Assembly (NCBI GenBank): GCA_027067015.1
Contig: JAMOMS010000061.1
Span: 1 to 12,482, forward strand
Length of the DNA: 12,482 nt
Reading direction: 5' to 3'
DNA from: Campylobacterales bacterium
GTDB lineage: Bacteria > Campylobacterota > Campylobacteria > Campylobacterales > Hydrogenimonadaceae
Positions within the stretch are counted from its first letter, which is position 1. Every line of letters begins with the position of its first letter. The notes below the pieces were generated by a model that saw only the letters and a program-made list of their open reading frames with translations, was not told the origin of the DNA and made no database searches. A program made the position numbers and the translations under genes. This document shows positions 2,784 through 12,482 of the stretch, one piece after another.

Positions 2784-2841
2784 TGACGAAAAAAGTTCTA
2801 TATTGACGATTTTATAAAAATTTAATTGACTTTTTTCGTCA
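2784..2841. repeat. Perfect 13-bp inverted repeat (TGACGAAAAAAGT / ACTTTTTTCGTCA), candidate operator
   Basis: The left arm is TGACGAAAAAAGT at 2784-2796 and the right arm is its exact reverse complement at 2829-2841, with a 32-bp AT-rich spacer. A third copy of the TGACGA core lies inside the spacer at 2804-2809, exactly 20 bp after the left one. The right arm overlaps the -35 element of the promoter for the recombinase-like gene, and the A/T run in each arm suits a protein with a minor-groove-binding GRPK arm, such as the one encoded just downstream. The geometry and position suggest an operator for autorepression or DNA looping. Confidence 0.6.
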
Positions 2842-2855
2842 AAATGTCGTACAAT
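2826..2855 (+). promoter_or_regulatory. Sigma70-type promoter of the recombinase-like/ccoG operon
   Basis: TTGACT (2826-2831) and TACAAT (2850-2855) are separated by 18 bp, close to the sigma70 consensus and the best -35/-10 pair in the window. Transcription would start at about 2862, leaving a leader of roughly 27 bases before ATG 2889. The -35 is covered by the right arm of the 13-bp inverted repeat, so a protein bound there should block RNA polymerase. Confidence 0.65.
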
Positions 2856-2888: not shown

Positions 2889-3572
2889 ATGACTTACGCC
2901 TATTTGCGACAGATTCCCGGGGCCCGAAGCCTGATGCACCAGCAAAAATCGGTCATCGGCTACGCGCTCGGCCAGGGACTGGAGATCGACAAGGAGGTGG
3001 TGGAGCACTCCAGCCGCAACCGTCCCATCGAGGAGCGGAAGCAGTTTGAGGAGTTTATGCACTCCCTGGAGCGCGGTGACGACCTGATTGTCGCTGAGAT
3101 ATGGGCTTTGAGCGACCGGATTGACGAGTTGATGAAGATTCTGGGCTGTACCATCAGCCGGGAAGTTTCATTGCATATCGTCTCAAGCGGTCTGAAGGTG
3201 GACAAGGAGACGCCGATCGGCAAGATATTGCCGCTCTTTAACGGGCGGCCCGATATTGAGAGCGAAAAGAAGAGCGGGGTGGGGCGTCCCAAAGGGAGCA
3301 AGTCCCGCTCCAAGTTCGACTCCTTGCAACCGCAGATTCTCAATATGCTCAAAGAGGGGATGAGTGTGAGCGCGATTGCCAGAGAGCTGGGGGTTAACCG
3401 CAGTTCTTTGAAAGATTACATCGAATCACGCTCGCTCAAGGAGTTGGTGGAAAACACCTTTATCGAGATCGGGAAGCCCCGGCGGACCGATATTATCGGC
3501 GACGATCTGCTCATCTGCCCTTTTGAGGAGGAGCGGGAGAGCGAGAGCCGACAATCACAAAAAAGGAGATAG
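2889..3572 (+). CDS. Catalytically degenerate serine-recombinase-like DNA-binding protein, probable transcription regulator
   Basis: This 227-residue protein has the domain order of small serine recombinases: a resolvase-like N-terminal domain (1-115), a linker, a Hin-like arm VGRPKGSK (131-138) and a helix-turn-helix (about 158-178: SVSAIARELGVNRSSLKDYI). The resolvase motif Y-A-R-V-S-T reads Y5-L-R-Q-I-P10, so isoleucine replaces the nucleophilic serine. The DRLGR motif reads WALSD (72-76), so both catalytic arginines are replaced (A73, D76). It therefore should not cut DNA, but should still bind it. The start is ATG 2889 after an AGGAAC-type site; an upstream GTG-type extension would precede the promoter's transcript start. 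The stop is three bases before ccoG, so the two genes are co-transcribed. Automatic annotation would call it recombinase or invertase; I infer a regulator. The acidic/basic C-terminal tail (214-227) is unrecognised. Confidence 0.8.
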   Translation: MTYAYLRQIPGARSLMHQQKSVIGYALGQGLEIDKEVVEHSSRNRPIEERKQFEEFMHSLERGDDLIVAEIWALSDRIDELMKILGCTISREVSLHIVSSGLKVDKETPIGKILPLFNGRPDIESEKKSGVGRPKGSKSRSKFDSLQPQILNMLKEGMSVSAIARELGVNRSSLKDYIESRSLKELVENTFIEIGKPRRTDIIGDDLLICPFEEERESESRQSQKRR

Positions 3573-3575
3573 CCG

Positions 3576-5039
3576 ATGCAAGCGACAGCCGGCGCGCAGA
3601 GCGCGCCTAAAAAGACCAATAAAGCCAAGGAGTACCTCAAAGGGTGGGTGCCGTACCGCACGAAGCGGTACTGGCTCTTCGGGATCGTGACGGTAGTGGC
3701 GTTGATATTGCCATTCATCAAGATCAACGGGAACCACTTTTTCTTGCTCAACTTCGACCATAAACAACTGCACTTCATGTTCGTGCGGTTTGATATGCAA
3801 GAGCTCTATTTGATGCCCTTTTTGCTGATGCTTCTGTTTTTGGGGATCTTTTTCATGACCACCCTGGGGGGCCGTGTGTGGTGCGGCTGGGCCTGCCCGC
3901 AGACGATTTTTCGGGTGATCTACCGGGATCTGTTCGAGACCAAGCTGTTGCACCTGCGTAAGCGGATCACCAATAAACAGCAAGAGCCCGACTGGTCCAA
4001 ACCGGAGAATAAGGCCAAAGAGGGGGTGGCGATCGTGCTGTGGTCCATCCTGGCTCTCATCGCCGCCGCCGACTTTGTCTGGTTCTTCGTGCCGCCGGAG
4101 GATTTCTTTGCCTATATCCAAAACCCCGGTGAGCATAGCGTGCTGATGGGATTTTGGCTGGGACTGACCCTCTTTCTCATTGTTGACGTGGTGTGGCTTA
4201 AAGAGAATTTTTGTATCTATATCTGCCCCTACAGCCGCGTGCAATCGGTGATGTACGACGAAGATACCATCATGGCGATCTACGACGTCAAACGGGGCGG
4301 CCATATCTACGACCATGAGGGTCAAGACGGCCATAAACTGGTCAACTCCGTCAAAGAGCTAAGAGCCAGAGAGCCCGAGTCGGAGTGTACCGCGTGCGAA
4401 AGCTGTGTGAAAGTGTGCCCGACCCATATCGATATCCGGCAGGGTATGCAGTTGGAGTGTATCAACTGCCTGGAGTGCGTGGACGCGTGTACCAAAGTGA
4501 TGGGCGCGTTGGGTAAAGAGAGCCTCGTGCGCTGGACCAGCCCCCACGAAGTCGAGACCGGGGAGAAGACCAAATATATCCGACCCCGGACCATCGCCTA
4601 CTCCGTGGCCCTGACCATCGTCTTCGTGGCCCTGCTGATTATGGGAACCAAAAAAGAGCATATGCTACTCAACATCAACAAAACGGCCCAGCTCTACCGG
4701 TTCACCCATGACGGAAGGATCGTCAATGACTACACCTTCCTCTTCCAAAACACCGACAGTAAGGATCACACCTACTACTTCAAAGTAGAAAACGATAAGA
4801 TCAAAATTGTCAAACCGAGTAAGCCGTTTAAACTGGCGGCGGGCAAAAAGGCCAAGAAGATTGTCCAGCTTGAGGCGATCAAACCCCTGGCCGAGGATAC
4901 CCGAAAAGATACGCCGGTGCCGATCAAGATTGTGGCGTTTGCCACCGATGATCCCGAAAAGATCCGCGTGGAGCGCAATACCGTCTTTGTCTATCCCCGC
5001 TGGGATATCGTGCAGAAAAAATTGAAGAAGGCGGAGTAG
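3576..5039 (+). CDS. ccoG: Cytochrome c oxidase accessory protein CcoG (FixG/RdxA family)
   Basis: CcoG is an inner-membrane polyferredoxin needed for maturation of cbb3-type cytochrome oxidase, where it is thought to reduce Cu(II) to Cu(I) for the oxidase copper site. The 487-residue length is typical. Hydrophobic segments lie near 33-49, 77-95, 150-172, 187-207 and 338-356. The family hallmark WCGWACPQT is at 102-110 (C103, C107), followed by C213/C217 in CIYICPYS. Two [4Fe-4S] motifs sit at C271/C274/C277/C281 and C295/C298/C301/C305, and the last 120 residues form the periplasmic immunoglobulin-like domain of the family. The start is ATG 3576 with AAAGGAG nine bases upstream. It is the second gene of a four-gene operon, away from any ccoNOPQ genes in this window. 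Confidence 0.96.
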   Translation: MQATAGAQSAPKKTNKAKEYLKGWVPYRTKRYWLFGIVTVVALILPFIKINGNHFFLLNFDHKQLHFMFVRFDMQELYLMPFLLMLLFLGIFFMTTLGGRVWCGWACPQTIFRVIYRDLFETKLLHLRKRITNKQQEPDWSKPENKAKEGVAIVLWSILALIAAADFVWFFVPPEDFFAYIQNPGEHSVLMGFWLGLTLFLIVDVVWLKENFCIYICPYSRVQSVMYDEDTIMAIYDVKRGGHIYDHEGQDGHKLVNSVKELRAREPESECTACESCVKVCPTHIDIRQGMQLECINCLECVDACTKVMGALGKESLVRWTSPHEVETGEKTKYIRPRTIAYSVALTIVFVALLIMGTKKEHMLLNINKTAQLYRFTHDGRIVNDYTFLFQNTDSKDHTYYFKVENDKIKIVKPSKPFKLAAGKKAKKIVQLEAIKPLAEDTRKDTPVPIKIVAFATDDPEKIRVERNTVFVYPRWDIVQKKLKKAE

Positions 5040-5042
5040 GCG

Positions 5043-5396
5043 ATGTTGATCGCGATGCCGGTGAAGATGAACTGGGAGGATCCGCCGTTAACGACGGTGT
5101 TTGGCAAGGCCAAGTGGTTCGCCTTTGCTGATGACGGCGGCACGGTGGAGGTTCGGGAGAACCCCTACGCCGGCGCCGGCCCCAAGACGGTGGCCTGGCT
5201 GATTGAAAACGGCGTGGATACGGTGATAACCCAGCATATCGGGGGCAACCCCTTTATGTTCATGAAAGAGGCCGGGGTGCGGCTCTGGTACCCCGGCGAG
5301 GGGCGCATACTGGTCTCCGAGGCGCTGGCGCGTCTGCGGGAGGGGGCGTGCGAGGAGATTACCGTTGATAACATCATGCGATTTCACAACCATTAG
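5043..5396 (+). CDS. NifX/NifB C-terminal-domain protein (dinitrogenase iron-molybdenum cofactor family)
   Basis: This 117-residue protein has the single RNase-H-like domain shared by NifX, NifY and the C-terminus of NifB. It opens with LIAMPVKM and has the FGKAKWFAFADD stretch (20-31), the NPYAGAGPKTVAWLIENGVDTVITQHIGGN region (40-69) and the closing ITVDNIM. In nitrogenase systems such domains carry Fe-S/FeMo cofactor precursors; many stand-alone members occur in organisms without nitrogenase and have unknown jobs. There is a single cysteine (C103) and two C-terminal histidines, so any metal-cluster binding would be unusual. It starts at ATG 5043, three bases after the ccoG stop, with GGAG at 5034-5037, and is followed within 11 bases by the flavoprotein gene. 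No other nif gene is present, so a nitrogen-fixation role is not supported. Confidence 0.88.
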   Translation: MLIAMPVKMNWEDPPLTTVFGKAKWFAFADDGGTVEVRENPYAGAGPKTVAWLIENGVDTVITQHIGGNPFMFMKEAGVRLWYPGEGRILVSEALARLREGACEEITVDNIMRFHNH

Positions 5397-5407: not shown

Positions 5408-6598
5408 TTGAACCATAAGAAAGTGTTGATTCTGGGCGGCGGTTTCGCGGGGTTGGAGGCGGCCATCTTCCTGCGCAAAAAGGGGTGGTCGGTGACGATG
5501 ATCTCCAACCGCGACTACTTCTATATCTACCCCACCTCCATCTGGGTGCCCACCGGGGAGGCGAGTTTTGAGGATGTGAGCATTCCGCTCAAGCGCCTTT
5601 CGTGGGTGCACGGCTTTGAGCTGATTGTTGACGAGGTCAAAGAGATTCACGCCAAAGAGCGGCGGGTGGTCTGCGCGGAAGAGACCTACACCTGCGATTT
5701 TCTTGTGATCGCCATGGGAAGCGGCAAGGTCAAGCATGAGGGAAGCGAGCACTTTCTCTCCATCTGCGGCCATCCCGAAGAGTCGCTCAAGATCAAGGAG
5801 CGGCTGGAGGCGTTGGTGCAAAAGGGGAGCGGAAAGATCGCCATGGGATTTGGCGGCAACCCCAAAGACCCCAGCAACGTGCGGGGCGGCCCGGCTTTTG
5901 AGGTGCTTTTTAATGTGCACAATATGCTTAAGAAAAAGGGGATCCGCGACAAGTTCGAGCTTACCTTTTTCGCGCCCATGAAAGAGCCCGGCGCGCGGTT
6001 GGGTACCAAAGCGCTGAAGATGATGGATATGTTTTTTGAGCGTCTGGATATCCGCCGCCAGACGGGCAAAAAGATCAAACGTTTCGAGGCCGACGGCGTG
6101 GTGCTGGAGGATGATAGCAAGATCGAGAGCGACTTTACCATGTTCATTCCCGCCGGCGACGGTCACCCGGTTTTCAAAAACTCCGACCTGCCGCTCAACG
6201 AAGCGGGGTTGATCCGCATCAACGACTATTGCGAGGTGGTGCACGATTATGACGAGAGCCCCGAGATCTACAATGTTTTCGCCATCGGCGACAGCGCCGT
6301 GCTGGACGGCCCCGACTGGCGCGCCAAACAGGGGCACATTGCCGAGGTGATGGCCCGCAACGTGGCCTTCAACATTGACGCCATCGCCAAAGGGCGCAGT
6401 GAGCGCAAAGGGTATATGTCGCACCTGAATATTCTGTGCGTCATGGACAGCGGCGACGGCGCGGCCTTTGTCTACCGCGACGACAAAGGGGGCAAAATGA
6501 TCCCCATGCCGGTGGTGGGCCACTGGCTCAAAAAGGGGTGGGGCTGGTATTGCCGCAACTCCAAGCTTGATCGCATCCCCCGTATTCCGGGGATGTGA
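5408..6598 (+). CDS. Sulfide:quinone-reductase-like FAD-dependent oxidoreductase
   Basis: This 396-residue flavoprotein of the two-dinucleotide-binding-domain superfamily is closest in layout to sulfide:quinone oxidoreductases. The FAD Rossmann motif ILGGGFAGLEAA is at 8-19, DFLVIAMGSG at 97-106, a second nucleotide-fold segment at 140-150, and the FAD-contacting FAIGDSA at 291-297. It ends in the GHWLKKGWGWYC-type tail (371-382) that in SQRs anchors the protein to the membrane. Cysteines are C89, C96, C120, C275, C344 and C382. C120 and C344 fit the first and third conserved SQR cysteines, but the middle one, expected near NVRGGPAFE (157-165), is absent, so sulfide as substrate is uncertain. 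The start is TTG 5408, chosen because AGGAGG lies seven bases upstream at 5395-5400. It is the last gene of the ccoG operon. Confidence 0.85.
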   Translation: MNHKKVLILGGGFAGLEAAIFLRKKGWSVTMISNRDYFYIYPTSIWVPTGEASFEDVSIPLKRLSWVHGFELIVDEVKEIHAKERRVVCAEETYTCDFLVIAMGSGKVKHEGSEHFLSICGHPEESLKIKERLEALVQKGSGKIAMGFGGNPKDPSNVRGGPAFEVLFNVHNMLKKKGIRDKFELTFFAPMKEPGARLGTKALKMMDMFFERLDIRRQTGKKIKRFEADGVVLEDDSKIESDFTMFIPAGDGHPVFKNSDLPLNEAGLIRINDYCEVVHDYDESPEIYNVFAIGDSAVLDGPDWRAKQGHIAEVMARNVAFNIDAIAKGRSERKGYMSHLNILCVMDSGDGAAFVYRDDKGGKMIPMPVVGHWLKKGWGWYCRNSKLDRIPRIPGM

Positions 6599-6689: not shown

Positions 6690-6717
6690 TTCGTAAAAAT
6701 TTTCCCAAGGAGCTGTG

Positions 6718-7110
6718 ATGACCCAGAAAGTCTTCAAAGAAAAATACCCCATTTTCGAGCTTTTCATCGACAAAAGCGAAACCACCTGCCAAAACGTGGA
6801 TGACGTGATCGCCCATTTCAAAGCGCGTATCGAGGAGCATCCGGTGGCCACCTATATCGCCACCTTCGACCACTACGCCCACACCGCCTCTTTGCCGGAG
6901 AGCACGATCGCCGACAATATCAAGGCGGCCAAGAACATCGTCTTTTGCTTCGGCAAAGAACTGCCGACCCCCGAGGTGATGGCGGTACGCCCCCGCTCCA
7001 TCGGCGTGAGCGACCTGGGCGACAAGTTCGTCGTGATCTTCATGGAAGCGCCCAACCCCCAGGCCAACGAGGCGATGGAGAACTGGAGCAAGGCGCTCAA
7101 AAACGCGTAA
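6718..7110 (+). CDS. Small conserved protein of unknown function (DUF6858-like)
   Basis: This 130-residue protein is predicted to be soluble and cytoplasmic. ATG 6718 is preferred over the adjacent GTG 6715 because AAGGAG at 6707-6712 lies five bases before the ATG and only two before the GTG. Visible features are an N-terminal FKEKYPIFELFIDKSET block, a helix (28-40), the central HPVATYIATFDHYAHT stretch (41-56) with H52 and H55, FCFGKELPTPEVMAVRPRS (76-94) and the strand KFVVIFMEAPNPQANE (103-118). C24, C77 and the two histidines could bind a metal, but that is speculation. From memory it resembles the uncharacterised DUF6858 family of Campylobacterota, which I cannot check here. It is monocistronic by its own promoter and a following hairpin. 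Confidence 0.82.
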   Translation: MTQKVFKEKYPIFELFIDKSETTCQNVDDVIAHFKARIEEHPVATYIATFDHYAHTASLPESTIADNIKAAKNIVFCFGKELPTPEVMAVRPRSIGVSDLGDKFVVIFMEAPNPQANEAMENWSKALKNA

Positions 7111-8766: not shown

Positions 8767-8795
8767 CTTTTACCTGCCTCTTAGAGGGGCTTGGC

Positions 8796-8801
8796 TACAA
8801 T
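8796..8801 (+). promoter_or_regulatory. Probable -10 element (GCTACAAT) for pyrG-recJ
   Basis: TACAAT at 8796-8801, preceded by GGC, gives a start near 8808. The leader carries AGAGGG (8825-8830) six bases before ATG 8837. No -35 is recognisable. Confidence 0.5.
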
Positions 8802-8809
8802 CGCGTTAG

Positions 8810-10470
<1,661 letters not shown>

Positions 10471-12106: not shown

Positions 12107-12130
12107 TACGTTAACACAGGAGTGACGGCC

Positions 12131-12482
12131 ATGGATAAAAAGATGATGAAGCAGAGTCAGGAAGTGATCGAAGAGCTTTTAAAGCGAGAGGGTATGAGCC
12201 GCCGGGACGCTTTGAAGCTAATGGGCCTTGGCGGTGCGGCGACGATGATGGGCGCGGCGCCTTCAGCGGCCCAGGCGGCCACCGAGGCGATGGCTTCGAG
12301 TGACAAGAAAGCCAAAATCGTGATTGTCGGCGGCGGCGCCGGTGGTATTATGGCGGCGGCCAGGATGCGCAAAGCGGCACCCAACGCCGAGATCGTCTTG
12401 ATCGCCCCCAACGATATTCACCTCTATCAACCCGGACAGGTCTTTATGGCGGCGGGTCTTTACACCGAAGACGACATTCGCA
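12131..12482 (+). CDS. Tat-exported SQR-like FAD-dependent oxidoreductase, 3'-truncated by the window edge
   Basis: The first 117 residues are visible. ATG 12131 has AGGAG eight bases upstream. A 22-residue charged extension precedes a twin-arginine motif SRRDALK (23-29), a hydrophobic stretch rich in Gly/Ala/Met (30-46) and a likely signal-peptidase site after AQA (47-49), so the protein should be exported folded, with its flavin, to the periplasm. The mature part opens with the FAD-binding motif KIVIVGGGAGGIMAA (62-76) and then PNAEIVLIAPNDIHLYQPGQVF (84-105); the HxYQPG element is typical of sulfide:quinone reductases and relatives. Periplasmic SQR-like or flavocytochrome c sulfide dehydrogenase-like function is likely, but the diagnostic cysteines lie beyond the window. 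It probably starts a new transcription unit 62 bases after recJ. Confidence 0.85.
   Translation, partial: MDKKMMKQSQEVIEELLKREGMSRRDALKLMGLGGAATMMGAAPSAAQAATEAMASSDKKAKIVIVGGGAGGIMAAARMRKAAPNAEIVLIAPNDIHLYQPGQVFMAAGLYTEDDIR

Follow-up and report, generated by a model that had tools for sequence, protein, structure and literature searches.

What does a protein with the fold of a DNA-cutting recombinase, and with an apparently emptied active site, do immediately ahead of a gene for cbb3 oxidase assembly? The question arises in a 12,482-nucleotide stretch of Campylobacterales DNA (the window, by which we mean the whole stretch analysed), where two reading frames follow one another:

2889..3572, forward strand: regulator gene, 227 aa, serine-recombinase fold, predicted to be catalytically dead (open reading frame, Pfam, family alignment, fold search)
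3576..5039, forward strand: ccoG (cupric reductase / cbb3 oxidase assembly), directly following the regulator gene (TIGR02745, E 1.4e-152)

The regulator stop codon ends at 3572 and ccoG starts at 3576, which leaves the three bases between them that a preliminary description, made from the sequence alone, had reported. We consider it highly probable that the first gene encodes a small serine recombinase, domesticated and no longer able to cut DNA, which has become a dedicated autoregulator of a redox and sulfur regulon.

Catalytic residues, family and genomic context

The 227-aa protein matches Pfam Resolvase over residues 3-114 (E 7.9e-9) and HTH_7 over residues 141-175 (E 1.4e-5), both above the curated cut-offs, and its structure model has the serine-recombinase fold (Foldseek 4e-9); the best NCBIfam match is master invertase Mpi, far under the cut-off (63.7/272 bits). 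The model has helices at 144-155, 160-167 and 171-180. At the place of helix E it has only helix 110-118, followed by pLDDT below 50 across 122-138, and residues 190-227 are of low confidence. The GRPK arm (G132-R133-P134-K135) and the helix-turn-helix (HTH), described earlier as intact, are indeed present, supported by the modelled helices, and retained in the family; together they form the most conserved part of the protein (28/53 invariant columns in residues 132-181, 32-sequence alignment).

For the active site, we take gamma-delta resolvase numbering and the motifs YARVST and DRLGR as the reference for Ser10, Asp67, Arg68 and Arg71. The gapless register places Y5-L-R-Q-I9-P against YARVST and W72-A-L-S-D76 against DRLGR, with the replacements Ser10 to Ile9, Asp67 to Trp72, Arg68 to Ala73 and Arg71 to Asp76. 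The following codons in the window are concerned:

2913..2915, forward strand: codon 9 (Ile), where the nucleophilic Ser would stand (family alignment)
3102..3116, forward strand: codons 72-76 (WALSD), aligned with the D-R-L-G-R motif (family alignment, register to Sin)

The preliminary reading of YLRQIP, with Ile at the Ser position, was in the correct register and agrees with the family alignment, and its placement of WALSD, with Ala and Asp for both arginines, recurs in a profile alignment to Sin (PDB sequences), with the intact invertases aligning at the same place.

A protein search yielded 925 relatives at E <= 1e-3. Among the best 120 of these, the names were recombinase family protein, DNA invertase Pin-like or hypothetical, so automatic annotation does hide the protein under the name of an enzyme, as had been predicted; the named relatives in this set belonged to Hydrogenimonas, Sulfurovum and an unclassified Epsilonproteobacterium. 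A search with the most divergent member (L115) returned only 2 proteins, one of them 99% identical to the query. Across 397 Campylobacterota genomes, a profile search gave a match at E <= 1e-15 in 102, one per genome. Three (G137, G155, G197) are intact invertases: they carry the motifs YIRVST and SRLGRS, and the stretch examined contains no ccoG. The regulator gene is present in 99 genomes, untruncated in 98. The family alignment contains the window and further loci, 114 rows in all (111 distinct; second copies L003/L018, L015/L030 and L017/L032), taken from 118 after exclusion of the intact invertases L116, L117 and L119 and the truncated L118.

None of the 114 rows carries Arg at the 68 or 71 place, so the loss of these residues is fixed across the family. 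The nucleophile column is non-Ser in 112/114 rows; the Ser in L060 and L093 stands in a different motif, and both proteins lack the arginines. All three intact outgroup invertases have Ser, Arg and Arg in these columns. The earlier phrase "catalytic residues erased" holds for Ser10, Arg68 and Arg71 but is slightly too strong because the Arg8 equivalent (R7: 90 R, 23 K, 1 Q; R/K in 113/114) and the Arg45 equivalent (R50, 114/114) are kept. Neither the family alignment nor the register to Sin allows an active recombinase with catalytic residues at shifted positions. These two retained arginines would also be what one expects if the protein still recombined DNA, by altered chemistry or with an intact recombinase as partner, and another Resolvase-domain protein does occur in 4/25 genomes tested. 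The remaining 21/25 have no further Pfam Resolvase match at E <= 1e-5, which speaks against the partner, and the family has neither Arg68 nor Arg71 anywhere; we regard continued recombination as exceedingly improbable.

The gene is under purifying selection, with pairwise dN/dS of 0.016-0.16 in 17 of 18 pairs (the remaining pair has saturated dS), and since the Ser/Arg loss is fixed in the family under this selection, it is more than chance. In a maximum-likelihood tree, the family stands apart from the three intact invertases with support 100/100, and taxonomic families cluster, with 9 label changes for 10 groups, the minimum possible; the tree was built without the 16 named-contig loci and L118, its root was placed for display, the members of group f4 do not form one clade, and some of the long branches are uncertain. 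Fixed loss, a separate tree group and low dN/dS therefore describe an old, retained protein without the catalytic set, as far as sequence comparison can tell.

Synteny is equally constant. As the preliminary description had proposed to check, the gene stays beside ccoG in other Campylobacterota: ccoG lies downstream on the same strand in 112/114 rows, the other two (L014 and L093) ending at a contig edge, and in these 112 rows the start of its frame ranges from 160 bp within the regulator frame to 283 bp beyond it. A single copy beside ccoG is found in 97/98 genomes with an untruncated gene, the last one being at a contig edge. Because ccoG occurs in 380/397 genomes, mostly without the regulator, it is the regulator that comes with ccoG and not the reverse. 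A decaying pseudogene of a mobile-element resolvase could be seen in one genome (G195), where a copy at ccoG is truncated, but the single, consistently placed copies, the conserved HTH and above all the dN/dS values contradict decay for the family, and we give this reading next to no chance. The truncated copy itself (L118:5013-5363) has a 117 aa frame whose stop falls within the profile match; it stands about 330 bp ahead of ccoG and is a recent loss of the regulator gene.

Operator half-sites in the regulator's own promoter

The region 2780-2860, proposed earlier for DNA binding, holds a strongly conserved putative operator. A repeat search over 2710-2900, together with conservation and pattern scans, gave the following elements:

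2784..2796, forward strand: half-site 1 of the operator, TGACGAAAAAAGT, which is the outer arm of a perfect inverted repeat of 13 nt (repeat search, conserved in relatives)
2804..2812, forward strand: operator half-site 2, TGACGATTT, a direct repeat 20 bp after half-site 1 (conservation, pattern scans)
2829..2841, reverse strand: operator half-site 3, inverted, ACTTTTTTCGTCA (repeat search, conserved in relatives)
2826..2855, forward strand: sigma-70-like promoter, -35 TTGACT (2826-2831), 18-bp spacer, -10 TACAAT (2850-2855) (consensus match)

Half-sites 2 and 3 form an inverted unit of 38 bp (2804-2841), and the CGTCA core of half-site 3 (2837-2841) falls in the spacer between -35 and -10. 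The promoter is the best of 4 sites, matching 10/12 positions by consensus alone, where chance alone would give 2.5 sites in the scanned region. The full 13-nt palindrome was rejected as the conserved signal: it is special to the window genome, and relatives keep half-sites and spacing instead.

The putative half-site takes the form TGACG-(A/T)n and occurs either as an inverted pair on both sides of the -35 box, about 34 bp apart, or as repeats at intervals of ~20 bp. In 111 of the 114 upstream regions (150 bp each, identical ones removed), TGACG/CGTCA occurs 241 times vs 16.9 in 50 shuffles (maximum 25). The commonest inverted spacing, start to start, is 34 bp (49 pairs), with 12 pairs each at 33 and 35 bp, and the commonest direct spacing is 20 bp (43 pairs). 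A strict arrangement (inverted 33-35 or direct 19-21) is present in 95/111 promoters vs a mean of 0.06 in 100 shuffles, and in 0/20 of the 2-kb stretches upstream of ccoG in genomes without the regulator. Many of the 16/111 promoters in which it is absent have one half-site and a degraded partner, and the inverted half-site is degraded to CATCA in many Sulfurovum relatives. Such conservation in the regulator's own promoter marks the protein as a candidate autoregulator. Separately, the upstream regions of one family (f9: L045, L052, L060, L093) have the half-site TGGCG/CGCCA at nearly the same spacing, a change that could serve to map HTH specificity residues by covariation.

The GRPK arm and HTH would bind these half-sites, the HTH reading TGACG in the major groove and the arm reading the A-tract in the minor groove, with the recombinase domain kept as a dimer-forming, possibly signal-receiving part. 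Bound protein would then block RNA polymerase and repress the regulator-ccoG transcript, a mode of action we infer because the half-sites enclose the -35 box, with one between -35 and -10. An activator that recruits RNA polymerase from tandem half-sites upstream of -35 would suit the Hydrogenimonas- and Sulfurovum-type genomes, in which direct repeats at intervals of 19-21 bp precede the -35 box. Half-sites between -35 and -10, or after -10, normally repress, and the commonest layout has precisely such an inverted half-site (TTGAC-N6/N7-CGYCA, 70/111 promoters), to which most promoters of bacterial family f8 add a further one after the -10 box; the -35 boxes, moreover, are near consensus. Activation is thus unlikely, and we favour repression.

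Operator copies away from the regulator gene

To follow the operator genome-wide, we scanned all 397 genomes with the pattern TGACGDWWWN(20-22)WWWHCGTCA. It occurs in 36/99 genomes with the gene (55 sites, hand count) vs 2/298 without (p 3e-22; this and all other co-occurrence p-values are optimistic because the genomes are related), both matches in the latter lying inside long reading frames. With the regulator's own promoter left out, the counts are 21/99 vs 2/298 (p 6e-12). A reversed control pattern gave ~19 matches in the 99 positive and ~58 in the 298 negative genomes (hand counts), ~0.2 per genome in both, and therefore the base rate does not differ.

Twenty-one of the 55 sites are the regulator's own promoter; the other 34 are in 21 genomes. 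Among these, 14 precede an M48 peptidase gene (the frame was seen in 11 and inferred from near-identical flanks in 3), 4 are at a rhodanese locus (in 3 of which the rhodanese frame was picked), and 5 are single cases before other genes. A further 5/34, possibly chance matches, fall within long reading frames or run across their start; 4 of the M48 and rhodanese sites overlap short alternative frames. The remaining sites precede relatives of genes that lie downstream of ccoG in the window:

5043..5396, forward strand: NifX-like protein gene (PF02579); a 32%-identical relative has one operator at its own locus in G362
5408..6598, forward strand: SQR-like FAD oxidoreductase gene; relatives with 58-67% identity have the operator at separate loci, 4 sites in 4 genomes
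6715..7110, forward strand: DUF6858 protein gene; a 51%-identical relative has one operator at its own locus in G009

Thus the window's downstream genes carry the same operator where they are located elsewhere. The DUF6858 gene, in the window operon here and with its own operator copy elsewhere (L127:1614-2000), points by this double association to a redox or sulfur role. Through the shared operator, the regulator would control the SQR-like flavoprotein, NifX-like, DUF6858, rhodanese and M48 peptidase genes.

Several observations made by eye adjoin this set. An operator-like site in G238 (L170:2001-2038) lies 261 bp before an apparent cytochrome bd oxidase subunit I gene. At the end of the window, 12122-12481 (forward strand) encodes the beginning of a flavoprotein similar to sulfide dehydrogenase or SQR, cut by the contig end, with a weak resemblance to the operator in the region upstream. 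The CTP synthase gene (pyrG) is apparently split into 8837-9202 and 8791-10470 (forward strand), around 9190, so that either the gene or the assembly seems to contain a frameshift.

Outside the regulator's own promoter, the operator is found mostly in family f8, where the gene and the pattern can be compared among related genomes. There the pattern is present in 21/33 genomes with the gene vs 0/18 without (Fisher 3e-6), or 16/33 vs 0/18 when the own promoter is not counted (p 3e-4). The orthologous region upstream of the M48 gene has a slightly looser arrangement, always 34 bp, in 13/24 genomes with the regulator and in 0/18 without, though all 18 have the peptidase gene; excluding the six discovery sites leaves 7/18 vs 0/18 (p 0.008). 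This comparison covers 25/33 f8 genomes with the gene, reduced to 24 by dropping G389, whose peptidase gene runs over two contigs; each of the eight other genomes has an operator site at the M48 locus in the pattern scan, with the peptidase frame inferred in three of them. An operator at unlinked genes that co-occurs with the regulator, mainly in f8, is again consistent with a regulator that acts beyond its own gene.

Could the operator belong to another transcription factor, with the dead recombinase a mere target that has some other role, for instance architectural or in protein-protein contacts near CcoG? The link between regulator and operator is one we infer, and an unknown factor could vanish together with the gene. 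However, the operator tracks the regulator gene within f8 and does so at the unlinked M48 promoter too, the arm and HTH are the best-conserved part of the protein, and the polarity of the half-site, with the specific part outside and the A-tract inside, suits the arm-HTH layout known from resolvases. We therefore hold a separate factor to be quite improbable, and binding by the regulator itself to be the better reading.

Within the window's own genome, the pattern scans place the operator only at the regulator gene itself. A direct-repeat pattern in Hydrogenimonas- and Sulfurovum-type genomes is present in 20/26 with the gene (hand counts), 24/32 sites being at the own promoter (control 6), and in 1/8 without it (1 site; control 3; hand counts). 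For these genomes, what the sequences offer is evidence for autoregulation and a ccoG operon, not for a wide regulon. The proposal of a resolvase turned into a dedicated regulator of respiratory or metal-redox genes is accordingly borne out in its main part, by the fixed catalytic loss, the ccoG synteny and the operator at redox and sulfur genes; its metal component fits less well, as the regulon looks more like sulfur and thiol redox than metal redox.

Candidate signal, known relatives and significance

Two near-invariant cysteines suggest thiol sensing:

3147..3149, forward strand: Cys87 codon, 114/114 family rows (family alignment)
3516..3518, forward strand: Cys210 codon, in the C-terminal tail, 113/114 family rows, L115 being without it (family alignment)

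Exactly two cysteines are present in 51/114 family proteins. Cys87 and Cys210 are the best switch candidates and might sense reactive sulfur or the thiol redox state. In its widest form, this leads to the tentative proposal that a phylum-wide family of dead serine recombinases acts as a thiol- or persulfide-sensing repressor, with a Cys87-Cys210 switch, regulating sulfide and redox homeostasis in free-living sulfur-oxidising Campylobacterota. A sensor of copper or oxygen, serving cbb3 oxidase assembly, is a less likely alternative. It keeps some chance because the constant partner of the regulator, CcoG, is a cupric reductase for cbb3 oxidase, as described in the accessible part of PMC8267372, and the two cysteines could bind Cu(I). 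Yet the unlinked operator genes identified are SQR-like, rhodanese, NifX-like, DUF6858 and M48 genes, with no copper gene among those identified (part of the flanking genes having been family-searched), and ccoG itself mostly occurs without the regulator. A sulfur or thiol signal is the reading we prefer.

Comparison with characterised systems separates the familiar from the unusual. According to PMC7157771, Tn3 TnpR regulates its own gene, tnpR, together with tnpA by binding to promoters within res; TnpR (Tn3/gamma-delta) shares with the window regulator its fold, a C-terminal HTH and several half-sites over its own promoter. The window regulator differs from TnpR in the family-wide catalytic loss, in inverted half-sites of ~38-40 bp end to end and in having host redox and sulfur genes as targets. 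Hin has a GRPK arm plus HTH, a combination the window protein shares with the Hin/Gin/Mpi invertases, Mpi being its best NCBIfam match; unlike them, it has no catalytic Ser and neither Arg68 nor Arg71. The simplest origin would be a resolvase or invertase that kept its autorepressor half, lost its chemistry and became tied to host genes.

On the side of sulfur sensing, SqrR/CstR-type repressors have an ArsR or CsoR fold. In the portion of PMC9995734 available, SqrR represses sqr and a rhodanese gene and leaves DNA after a tetrasulfide forms between two cysteines. The window family resembles SqrR/BigR/CstR in its two conserved cysteines and in an operator that also stands at SQR-like and rhodanese genes; it is unlike them in having a serine-recombinase fold, not one of ArsR or CsoR type, and a persulfide response would apply to it by analogy only. 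A structure search of viral models (BFVD) also matched the fold of our model to poxvirus OPG061 (F16) proteins, at E 8.8e-5 and weaker. OPG061 is a eukaryotic virus protein and a serine recombinase relative without the catalytic site, in which it resembles the window protein; it is not known as a bacterial promoter regulator.

To our knowledge, the known bacterial members of the serine-recombinase fold are enzymes. We rate the window protein as a probable autoregulator on this fold, which fails as an active recombinase and lacks the ArsR or CsoR fold. Literature on a serine recombinase, resolvase or invertase with ccoG, on inactive or domesticated recombinase regulators, and on Sulfurimonas and Sulfurovum held nothing on this protein in titles and abstract starts, most subscription journals lying outside that scope. 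The main text of PMC6682613 has 0 occurrences of recombinase, resolvase, invertase, ccoG or helix-turn-helix, and PMC8987985, in its accessible sections, which include one on co-opted mobile-element transcription factors, gives no serine recombinase in that role.

The family would thus represent a mobile-element enzyme turned chromosomal regulator and kept in several families of one phylum, a likely transcription factor concealed by the annotation "recombinase family protein". Campylobacterota are prominent in sulfide-rich marine habitats. Given the operator sequence, the predicted regulon and the two cysteines proposed as sensors, regulation of sulfur and cbb3-linked redox functions by this protein becomes directly testable.
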